Part shown: in pieces, positions 4,602-58,748 of the stretch
Position numbering within the stretch: position 1 is the first letter of the stretch
Layout of the letters: each line of letters begins with the position of its first letter
Assembly (NCBI GenBank): GCA_017458625.1
Contig: JAFTAH010000138.1
Location: 1-64,000 of the forward strand
Source of the DNA: Kiritimatiellia bacterium
GTDB taxonomy: Bacteria; Verrucomicrobiota; Kiritimatiellia; CAIQIC01; Lenti-01
Length of the DNA stretch: 64,000 bases
Direction: 5' to 3'
Program-made: the position numbers and the translations under genes
Notes under the pieces: model-generated
Told to the model about the DNA's origin: nothing
The model's input: the letters and a program-made list of their open reading frames with translations, nothing else
Database searches by the model: none

Positions 4602-4636
4602 GTGATTTTACGTCAAAACAAGGCTTTTTTGCGCAA
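4602..4636 (+). repeat. Dispersed GTGATTTTACGTCAAA motif, copy 1
   Basis: GTGATTTTACGTCAAAAC is followed by AAGGCTTTTTTGCGCA. It lies 111 nt after one stop codon and 193 nt before the typA start, oriented with both genes. It belongs to a family of about 17 intergenic copies in this window whose function is unknown. Confidence 0.8.
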
Positions 4637-4640
4637 AACG

Positions 4641-4701
4641 TTTTCCCGGCGATGGAAACGTGTTTCGGCACTGTTTCCATGAAATGGAACCTGGTTTCGG
4701 G
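4641..4701 (-). repeat. GGAAACATG/TTCCATT repeats, reverse orientation
   Basis: On the minus strand this reads as two units of the family seen at 3311 and 32768: CCCGAAACCAGGTTCCATTT then TGGAAACAGTGCCGAAACACG. It lies 94 nt before typA and directly abuts a GTGATTTTACGTCAAA motif copy. Confidence 0.75.
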
Positions 4702-4794
4702 CCGACGTCGGCGATGGCTCCGGCCCGTTTTCCGCCCCGTACGGCGTTTTTTCCTTTCCCCGTGTCCGTCTTTGGTGTAGAAACCGCGCCCGCC

Positions 4795-6639
4795 ATGACC
4801 GCAGACCCATCCATCCAGCGCAACCCCAACCTCCGCAACGTCGCCATCATCGCCCACGTCGACCATGGCAAGACGACCCTCGTGGACGCGATTCTCCGGC
4901 AGCTCCGCGTGGCCCAGGGCGAAGCCGCGGCCCAGGACTGCATCCTCGACTCCAACGCCCTCGAGCGCGAGCGCGGCATCACCATCCTCGCCAAGAACGT
5001 CTCCGTCCGCTACCAGGGGGTCAAGGTCAACATCATCGACACCCCGGGACACGCCGACTTCGGCGGCCAGGTCGAGCGCGTGCTGAACATGGCCGACGGC
5101 GTGCTGCTGCTGGTCGACGCCGCCGAAGGCCCCATGCCCCAGACCCGCTTCGTCCTCGACAAGGCCATCCGGCTCGGCCTCAAGCCCGTGGTGGTGCTCA
5201 ACAAGATCGACAAGCCCGCCGAACGCCACGACGAGGTGCTCAACGAGATCTTCGACCTCTTCGTGGAACTCGACGCCAGCTCCGAGCAGCTCGACTTCCC
5301 CGTCCTCTACGCGGCCGGCCGCGACGGCTGGGCGGTCCTCGACCTCGACAAGGACGAGCGCACGAGCATCTTCCCGCTGCTCGACACCATCCTCGAGACC
5401 ATCCCCGGCCCGCCCGTCCTCGAGGGTCCGCTCCAGCTCCAGGTCAGCACCATCGACTACTCCGACTACACCGGCCGCATCGGCATCGGCCGCGTCCACC
5501 GGGGCACGCTCGAGCTCGACCAGCCCCTCGCCCTCGTCAAGCAGTCCGGCGAGGTCCTCCCCTGCAAGATCCGCGCCATCCACACCTTCGAGGGCCTCGG
5601 CCAGCAGGAGGTCGCGCGCGTCGAATGCGGCGACATCTGCGCCGTCCACGGCGTCGAGGGCGTCGACATCGGCGACACCCTGGCCCCCCCTGCCCATCCC
5701 GAGCCACTGCCCCCCATCCACCTCGACGCGCCGACCATCTCGATGATCTTCCGCATCAACGACTCGCCCGGCTTCGGCTCCTCCGGCAAGTACCTCACCA
5801 GCCGCCACATCCGCGAGCGCCTCCACAAGGCCGTCCAGGGCGACGTCGCCCTCAGCTACGAGGAGCTTGGCGAGTCCTCCTTCAAGGTCAGCGGGCGCGG
5901 CGTCCTCCACCTCGCCGTGCTGATCGAGACCATGCGCCGCGAGGGCTACGAGCTCACCATCTCCCGCCCCCGCATCATCGTGCGCACCATCGACGGCGTG
6001 AAGTGCGAGCCCGTCGAGACCCTCGTCGTCGACGTCCCCGACGCCCTCACCGGCCCCGTCATCGAGGCCGTCGGCAAGCGCCAGGGCATCATGGCCCGCA
6101 TGCACGCCGCCAACGGCCGCACCACCATGGAGTTCACCATCTCCACCGCCGACCTCATCGGCCTCCGCACCAAGCTCGTGACCGCCACCGCCGGCGAGGC
6201 CATCATCAACCATCGCTTCCTCCGCTACGAGCCCCAGAAGGCTGACATGAGCCAGCGCACCAACGGCGTCCTCATCTCCATGGAGACCGGCCGCGCCGCC
6301 ACCTACGCCCTCGACGGCCTCCAGGACCGCGGCTACTTCTTCGTCGAGCCCGGCGAATGGGTCTACGAGGGCCAGATCGTCGGTGAGCACTGCAAGGAGA
6401 CCGACGTCGTCGTCAACGTCCAGCGCGGCAAGAAGCTCACCAACATCCGCGCGGCCGGCGCCGACCGCAAGCTCTTCGTGGCCCCCGCCGTCAAGCTCTC
6501 CATCGAGGAGGCCCTCGAGTACATCAACGACGACGAGCTCGTCGAGGTCACCCCCGATGCCATCCGCCTCCGCAAGTACTTCCTCAGCGACCTCGAACGC
6601 CGCCGCAACCGCGACCACGACTGGACGCGCGAAGGCTGA
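4795..6639 (+). CDS. typA: Ribosome-associated translational GTPase TypA/BipA
   Basis: A 614-aa translation-factor GTPase of the usual TypA length. G1 is AHVDHGKTT (residues 20-28), G2 RERGITI (58-64), G3 DTPGH (82-86) and G4 NKID (136-139). EF-G-like domains II, III and V and the TypA-specific C-terminus ([19 protein letters not shown]) follow. It binds the ribosome and supports assembly and translation under stress. The ATG at 4795 starts just before [12 protein letters not shown], as in the family. It stands as a single gene behind two repeat families and converges with the minus-strand gene at 6707. Confidence 0.97.
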
Positions 6640-6675
6640 GAAGCCAGCAACGCCGGGATTTCCTCGGCAATTCCC

Positions 6676-6700
6676 GTAGCGGGCGGCCATCGCGCCGCCC
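6676..6700 (+). repeat. GTAGCG hairpin with conserved C(G/A)TCGC loop
   Basis: GGGCGGC-CATCGC-GCCGCCC follows GTAGC between two converging genes and is trailed by CCTTTC, so it may act as a terminator. The same arrangement with a CGTCGC loop and a different stem occurs at 10465, 18274, 18309, 19331, 22151 and 58804; most of those have imperfect stems. Confidence 0.55.
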
Positions 6701-6706
6701 CTTTCG

Positions 6707-58125: not shown

Positions 58126-58158
58126 CTGGCCGGTGGGCATCGCTCACCGGCCAGTTTT
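58126..58158 (+). terminator. Rho-independent terminator after PEP-CTERM gene
   Basis: CTGGCCGGTG (58126-58135) pairs with CACCGGCCAG (58145-58154), followed by TTTT. It is 23 nt after the stop codon. Confidence 0.9.
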
Positions 58159-58301
58159 GTATTCCCCCTTCCCCGCCCACCCCTTGTTGTGACGAGGACG
58201 CCCCCACCCTCGCCCTTTCCCTTCTCCTCGCCCCTTTCTTCCTTCCCCTTTTTTCCCCCTCTCTCAACCCTGGCCCCTCCACCCCGCCCGCTCCAATCGT
58301 C

Positions 58302-58328
58302 GTGATTTTACGTCAATCATTGCCCATT
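58302..58328 (+). repeat. Dispersed motif, copy 14, interrupted by MITE
   Basis: GTGATTTTACGTCAATCATT then GCCCATT, identical to copy 15 up to base 58328, where a TAGGGC MITE end begins. Copy 15 instead continues with TCGCCCATTTTTCC. Confidence 0.75.
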
Positions 58329-58395
58329 TAGGGCAAATTTAGAAAATTTGTGGCCACATCCATGGTAGGGCCCGACCGCCGGGCGGCCCGGAAAA
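58329..58395. mobile_element. Partial MITE-like element, copy 3
   Basis: TAGGGCAAATTTAGAAAATT, then TGTGGCCACATCCATGG and TAGGGCCCGACCGCCGGGC align with the minus strand of copy 1 (56301-56439). The match ends around GGCGGCCCGG and the far end is missing or diverged. Confidence 0.65.
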
Positions 58396-58533
58396 CCAAT
58401 GCGAGGAACGCCCCGCCTCCTCTCCACCCCCCTCCCCCGAAATTCTCGAAACCCTCTCAATTCTCGATTTGCCTCCCCCGTCTCTACGTCTCTGCGCCTC
58501 TACTCCCCCTCCTCCCGACCCGCCCCAATCGTC

Positions 58534-58574
58534 GTGATTTTACGTCAATCATTGCCCATTTCGCCCATTTTTCC
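58534..58574 (+). repeat. Dispersed GTGATTTTACGTCAAA motif, copy 15
   Basis: GTGATTTTACGTCAATCATT, then GCCCATTTCGCCCATTTTTC. The first 27 nt are identical to copy 14, 232 bp upstream. Confidence 0.8.
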
Positions 58575-58706
58575 TCCCATTCATCCCCGTTTTTCCCCGC
58601 CTCATCCCCCCCCTTCTTCGTCCCCTCCCGTCCCCCTTGCCACCCCCTCCCGTACCGCAGGGGCGTCATCCCTCGCCCTCGCCCATTTTCGCCCCTCCAA
58701 ATTCGC

Positions 58707-58748
58707 GTGATTTCACGTCAAAATCAGCCTTTTTTCGCCATTTCTCGC
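58707..58748 (+). repeat. Dispersed GTGATTTTACGTCAAA motif, copy 16
   Basis: GTGATTTCACGTCAAAATCA, then GCCTTTTTTCGCCATTTCTC. Third copy within 410 bp. Confidence 0.8.

Follow-up and report, generated by a model that had tools for sequence, protein, structure and literature searches.

The window analysed here, positions 1 to 64,000 of contig C95 (66.8 kb) of a Kiritimatiellia genome (G000; 2.69 Mb, 165 contigs, 80% complete, contamination 0.37), carries 14 clear copies of an intergenic element of about 52 base pairs (bp), together with a gene that lies between one forward and one inverted copy. We give a probability of roughly 0.55 to the reading that this element serves, at the DNA level, as the recognition site of a multicopy protein family specific to the lineage, and that the solo copies are dispersed ends of the gene units. 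Directly observed are the bracketing of the family genes by the element, the co-occurrence and covariation of element and family, the absence of RNA structure, the strand behaviour of the copies and the retention of cores where flanks have been lost. Each gene forms a compact unit with a forward element 5' of it and an inverted element just past its stop codon. In a sister genus the left element runs directly into the promoter and start codon of the gene, and in part of these units the right element lies inside its last coding part. The protein would bind the element and control its own gene, and the solo copies would derive from unit ends scattered between genes.

Sixteen matches to the core GTGATTYYACGTCAAA occur in the window at up to three mismatches against 0.39 expected, a number reached by none of 100 shuffles. 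Fourteen copies have no more than one mismatch (4602, 10412, 13931, 18222, 19388, 24686, 24938, 29760, 34478, 36534 on the minus strand, 49446, 58302, 58534, and 58707), and a profile search of the window (E < 0.01) returned the identical 14. A preliminary description of the sequence had listed about 17 copies; these 14 were confirmed, but the other three are not as read. The copy at 25816, taken for a degenerate one in the same sense, is inverted on the minus strand (about 25847–25811), just after the gene at 25036–25788. At 53581, only profile positions 2–22 are matched (E 2.3), leaving a weak fragment like the first half of the element (53570–53590, plus strand), and the copy at 44465 was missed by the core search, scored 2.3 bits (E 190) with the profile and is not counted. 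The two-part structure of core and second half holds for most copies but not at 29760, where the core is present without the second half (29748–29787, plus strand; core and profile searches). The core, CATTGG and T-run already recognised do belong to the motif, but the conserved element is longer, reaching from CCCAA 5' of the core through a second T-tract, with the rough consensus CCCNAA-N5-GTGAKTTTACGTNAAA-N8-TTTTT-N6-TTTT. Conserved and free positions alternate along it, even beyond the part that defined the search (AA at 90–95%, the next positions at most 45%), which is unlike the decay of a neutral repeat. Across 56 element sequences no RNA pairs were predicted and no hairpin was seen, and the only known RNA family in the window is one tRNA.

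The whole of G000 holds 68 core matches at up to one mismatch and none to the reversed pattern; C95 accounts for 14 of the matches, the densest cluster in the genome, and also bears a gene unit. The scan of the genome and its relatives that the preliminary description had called for gave at least 140 copies in G000 (52-position model, E ≤ 0.01; best 150 of 635 candidates scored) and, at the same threshold, 64 and 60 in G004 and G008, two species of the sister genus. The DNA stretches examined around these copies were fetched mostly for their matches, and the copy densities in them are not representative.

In the window, the unit runs from the forward element (24926–24977, plus strand; core and profile searches) through a promoter-like TTGCCT–16 nucleotides (nt)–TAATCA, read by eye and common to two sister units (24977–25004, plus strand), and the gene itself (25036–25788, plus strand; 250 amino acids, no known family, N-terminal hydrophobic segment) to a weak inverted element just past the stop codon (25811–25847, minus strand; 5.7 bits). 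The family has ten members in G000 (E ≤ 0.001), one of them in the window. All ten are followed by an inverted element at most 70 nt past the stop, three of these being only weak matches; the scores range from 3.1 to 21.6 bits in all nine distinct genes scored, and the tenth reaches 6.8 bits. Of 487 other genes, 25 are followed within 70 nt of the stop by an inverted element scoring 3 bits or more (Fisher p = 8e-13 against the family, one family gene having been entered twice to give 10 rows for 9 distinct genes). The genes were called with a home-made program; one likely gene at least escaped it (57443–58102, entered manually), and it truncated the C123 family gene at its start. A forward element lies about 60 nt 5' of the start in the window, C102 and C123 units and is clear in three of the four G000 units with the left end covered; in the scored rows only 2 of 5 show a forward element, which is due to the shortened C123 start. 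Alignments between G000 units begin and end near the outer edges of the elements, and the inverted ends are imperfect. For six of the ten genes a contig end is no more than 300 nt away, as is common for repeats in assemblies.

The exact core with CATTGG is absent from the GTDB r220 contigs, a set that may leave out the source genome, and from IMG/VR, and the core at one mismatch gave isolated matches only, in 5 of 55 other genomes. A looser core had 88 matches in G000, 13 in G004 and 7 in G008, with none to the reversed control in each; it reads GTGAGATTACGGAAAA in G004 and G008, and singly in G001 and G002. The match in G002 lacks the remainder of the element. G001, of a third genus of the family, has one full element (L082:5605–5659); its sequence is nearly that of a G004 copy, and the 6.3-kb contig on which it lies may be misbinned. 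Among 146 genomes of the class, G000, G004 and G008 have the element at E ≤ 0.001, and none of eight listed same-family genomes does. Family genes (E ≤ 1e-5) were found in the same three genomes, ten in G000 and at least 15 in each of G004 and G008; the best 40 (element) or 15 (gene) candidates per genome were scored in these class searches, and the counts are floors. The co-occurrence has a hypergeometric p of 1.7e-4, taking nine genomes with any relative. Six distant genomes of the class have one to three weak relatives each; a crude search for inverted repeats flanking them, with several gene models wrong, gave nothing above shuffles. In a scan of GTDB contigs, 89 relatives were found, and of the 80 listed, 46 belong to G004, 33 to G008 and one to a metagenome-assembled genome labelled Bacteroidales (Tb.RUG.143). 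This last family member, at 43% identity on a 5.5-kb contig (L199), reflects either misbinning or transfer.

An iterated profile found 112 copies in 671 kb of G004 and G008 stretches, five of them overlapping gene calls. The long form of the element in the sister genus ends in CCATGAA, about 62 bp past the element start, and nine G004 and G008 copies end at a called start codon, eight of which belong to one paralogous family of about 310 amino acids. By eye, the order 5' of 49 genes is the core (about -56 to -40), a -35-like TTGAC or TTGCA, about 17 nt, a -10-like CATNCT, CACACT or TATACT, about 7 nt and the ATG. For 50 genes, the profile placed the element 54–59 nt 5' of the ATG in 34 and 47 nt 5' of it in two, and found none in 14. 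In 18 of the 50, an inverted element lies in the coding end, 148–211 nt before the stop; in the first subfamily the inverted core codes for the peptide FSVIS (by eye). The core type tracks the protein subfamily, being GCGATATCAAGG in one, GAGATTACGG or GAGATTCCAG in another, and TTTGGGAACA and others elsewhere. Correlation with protein distance was strongest for the core (0.61), fell to 0.41 and 0.27 at positions further in and was 0.16 just outside (49 genes, uncorrected for shared descent). An ATG is present in 76 long-form copies, and the start-codon end of 69 of them leads into no family gene, as expected for solo unit ends; these 69 carry two T-tracts about 10 bp apart that are missing from the gene promoters. 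The conserved ATG at the element end does not generally open a coding sequence, since the frame that starts there is no longer than another frame, and the downstream genes often seem to have their own promoter-like sequence further on (by eye).

Comparison of orthologous loci between G004 and G008 revealed both stable and altered surroundings. Elements at L119:6940 and L123:8388 lie in alignable surroundings in both species. At L111:10467 and L112:15126, the cores are 94–100% alike between G004 and G008 and the flanks 15–50%. At L119:2536 (L119:2430–2760 against L136:14000–14300), the G004 element is full and of one core type and the G008 element diverged and of another, between near-identical outer flanks, and at L120:10088 a difference of about 1.3–1.4 kb begins at the element end. 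The left flanks of the L184, L208, L217, and L224 units match one locus in the sister species and the right flanks another; these units are therefore rearrangement points.

The family proteins have no match above noise in Pfam, which was searched with 50 members, NCBIfam, PHROGs or the PDB sequences. RnpM (E 0.0097, 15.9 bits against a cut-off of 80), a phrog (E 0.032), DUF2089-HTH in one of 50 members (E 0.023), and a Cse2 chain (E 0.088) were taken as noise. The 50 members gave no ParB-type Pfam match, and one ParB chain at Z 2.8 was within noise. No H-x-H of the HUH kind occurs in any of the 50. AlphaFold2 predicted a mostly helical fold for a sister-genus protein of 310 amino acids (predicted local distance difference test, pLDDT, 77; predicted template modelling score, pTM, 0.68), and the window protein was modelled at pLDDT 73 and pTM 0.60. 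The conserved stretch around YSTAMRYKRLAEQL reads like a helix-turn-helix, and the family proteins are probably DNA-binding. An N-terminal hydrophobic segment was present in ten of ten proteins tested, on hydropathy only (Kyte-Doolittle maxima 1.47–2.22). A virus or plasmid origin was set aside: the window protein was unmatched in a plasmid collection and a sister-genus protein in a phage collection, and relatives of the window protein are absent from IMG/VR.

Placement bears on what the solo copies may do. The preliminary description held that every copy is intergenic, and that the copies follow the local genes in almost all cases and mark transcription-unit boundaries. The first point is borne out, as no window copy lies in a called gene (0/14) and only two of the 102 profile copies in the fetched G000 stretches overlap a gene call. 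Orientation also agrees within the window, where 12 of the 14 copies share the strand of their upstream gene, but across 95 copies of the genome only 58 do so, and 50 share the strand of their downstream gene. These 95 are the copies with both neighbours known, the other seven being left out; seen from the element, both genes run along it in 29, the junction is convergent in 29 and divergent in 21, and both genes run against it in 16. Between same-direction genes the copies are thus sense in 29 and antisense in 16 (p = 0.07), so that the random orientation named at the outset as evidence against a boundary mark was found in part. Convergent regions make up 15,210 of 87,958 bp (intergenic regions of at least 120 bp), which gives 16.4 copies expected against 29 observed (p = 0.0016). 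The impression of a boundary mark can be ascribed to the copies lying between genes, with this convergent excess; that much stands, but no general terminator or promoter emerges from it.

For strong copies, regional strand asymmetry accounts for the orientation better than gene direction does. Intergenic C/G skew in G000 is regional, with t 12.1 for the rest of the locus and 1.7 for gene direction (241 regions), and it tracks the skew at third codon positions on both gene strands (r 0.82 and 0.85; G000, 39 sources). Since the skew is also found in third codon positions of both strands, it is probably replication-linked. Among the copies of at least 30 bits with clear skew, 49 of 52 are on the regionally C-rich strand, and strong copies with both flanking genes opposed follow the regional asymmetry in six of seven cases; weaker copies show no strand tie (17/31). 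The profiles were trained on copies that they later count, and high scores go preferentially to copies with pyrimidines at the free positions. Matches to the 16-letter core, which has equal purines and pyrimidines and is free of this bias, agree with the strand asymmetry in 39 cases, oppose it in four and are neutral in six. Genes also favour the C-rich strand (287/465 in G000), which can account for the impression that the element follows genes.

Several alternatives may be weighed against these data. A terminator or other 3'-end element of transcription units would suit the convergent excess (29/95), the T-tracts and the position of 20 of 43 sister-genus solo copies with a same-strand upstream gene, which sit 30–60 nt past its stop. 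However, there is no conserved RNA pairing, 37 of 95 copies have no same-strand upstream gene and strong copies follow the regional asymmetry in six of seven cases with both genes opposed, and we regard this explanation as extremely improbable. The terminator or processing site considered in the preliminary description thus finds no support, while the protein-binding site or mini-element named beside it fits, the same element bracketing a multicopy gene family. The solo copies as a class were also rejected as promoters of the next gene, with 29 convergent and 16 antisense copies among 95, and a sigma-54 promoter was rejected on its spacing, counted by hand. A polar replication-direction sequence with no relation to the gene family, such as a KOPS- or Chi-like site or an uptake signal, would agree with the 49 of 52 strong copies on the C-rich strand and with the skew in third codon positions. 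The layout of a core with two T-tracts resembles that of uptake signals; none was found in a limited literature search. Against a polar sequence, the weak copies are untied (17/31), cores with G at position 5 or 12 agree with the asymmetry in 20 cases, oppose it in 11 and are neutral in eight, and gene bracketing and covariation would be left unexplained, which leaves it very improbable.

A further possibility, which we consider rather unlikely, is that the solo copies are host-functional sites. In this case a membrane-associated DNA-binding family would act through some 100–150 intergenic sites, in a Noc-like manner, either on gene expression or on the tethering or organisation of the chromosome, and the units would be self-regulated members. 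The alternation of conserved and free positions, the cores kept where flanks are lost, the positions common to two species, the hydrophobic N-terminal segment in all ten proteins tested and the resemblance of the core to the middle of parS are all in line with such sites. Ten to dozens of gene copies per genome, with inverted copies at the gene ends, would be unexpected for a housekeeping system, the sister-genus solo copies retain the start-codon end, and the system is restricted to few genomes, all of which tell against host-functional sites. Several observations count against a recognition site with dispersed unit ends. Most copies are single ends, not pairs; no clean empty site or target duplication was seen by eye at the G000 units or at G004 and G008 loci chosen for elements or genes; and some element positions are conserved between the two species, which indicates little recent movement. 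The family searches brought up neither a nuclease nor a transposase domain, and structure searches with models other than that of the window protein gave no fold match above noise, although a transposase could have escaped both. The right-end copies of three G000 units are weak (3–7 bits), and the profile found no left-end copy at the C153 unit. A non-family gene that reads like Sua5/YciO (L037:16952–17763) likewise lies between a forward and an inverted element, and the full element is present in G001, a third genus, on the perhaps misbinned contig.

The remaining window elements were all found by core and profile searches, and most are solo. On the plus strand these are at 4590–4641, 10400–10451, 13919–13970, 18210–18261 (convergent junction), 19376–19427 (divergent junction), 34466–34517, and 49434–49485, the last with the best profile score in the window, and the one on the minus strand at 36495–36546 opposes the regional asymmetry. 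A second copy lies in the region 5' of the gene unit (24674–24725, plus strand). Three same-direction copies on the plus strand (58290–58341, 58522–58573, and 58695–58746; cores at 58302, 58534 and 58707) are spaced 173–232 bp apart in one long convergent region. Close pairs elsewhere are also mostly in the same direction (24686/24938; L041, L047, and L052), L048 holding an inverted pair, and four copies about 280 bp apart at L104:5749–6658 in G004 each lie in a similar repeat unit. Other repeat families share these intergenic regions (window 58840–58960); over 350 G000 intergenic regions, the 12-mers CTAGAATCCTAG, AGGATGTCGCAC, GGCTTCCAGCCG, TTCCATTGTCTG, and CTAGAGCATTTT were found in 17, 16, 17, 12, and 9 regions. 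The gene at 57443–58102, uncalled because of its lower G+C, likely encodes an exported protein with a PEP-CTERM-like end, as read from its translation.

Abundant bacterial intergenic repeats are usually explained by HUH-type transposases or well-known binding proteins. In the present case the repeat, with at least 140 copies, is linked to a gene family that is itself multicopy and unnamed in any library searched, and a limited literature search on intergenic repeats of this class found no description of the element. The pair of protein and site would offer a concrete case for binding, self-regulation, dispersal and chromosome tethering, and would join seemingly scattered punctuation into one system, in which the subfamilies with matched cores form a natural series for how binding specificity changes.

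Among known systems, insertion sequences have a general anatomy with terminal inverted repeats. The compact one-gene unit of about 0.9 kb between imperfect inverted ends, its left end joining the promoter and its right end at or in the 3' end of the gene, resembles them, as does the position of six of ten copies within 300 nt of a contig end; unlike them, it shows no recognised transposase domain, no target duplication or empty site was seen, and mostly solo ends are found. Intrinsic terminators differ in having a hairpin before the T-run, and the element is not reliably on the strand of the gene that it would end. A few element copies hold TTTCACGTGAAA, the middle of the parS consensus, whereas most copies are asymmetric and the copies are many. 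In the excerpted account of Noc (PMC4331003), short chromosomal sites are likewise scattered, and the family protein may similarly bind DNA and sit at the membrane; in contrast, there is no ParB or Noc family match, the 52-bp element is asymmetric and the multicopy gene is bracketed by its own sites. The REP/RAYT system, as far as the excerpt used here describes it (PMC2817692), shares a gene between two inverted repeats, more than 100 solo intergenic repeats, repeat and protein that change together, a repeat number that tracks gene presence and an occurrence in few lineages; the excess of repeats described near the rayt gene has its counterpart in the local excess near the gene copy on C95 (14 of 68 core matches). 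It differs in that the present element, about 52 bp with phased A/T tracts, has no palindrome or hairpin, the HUH motif is found in 0 of 50 members, the protein was unrelated in every search and the gene occurs in ten to dozens of copies. Lacking the hairpin and HUH features, the system is not a REP/RAYT member. We tentatively suggest that it could be a REP/RAYT-like organisation built on an undescribed family without HUH, in which membrane-associated DNA-binding proteins occur in dozens, each subfamily with its cognate operator or end, alongside more than 100 solo ends, and which occurs almost only in two genera of a single Kiritimatiellae family.

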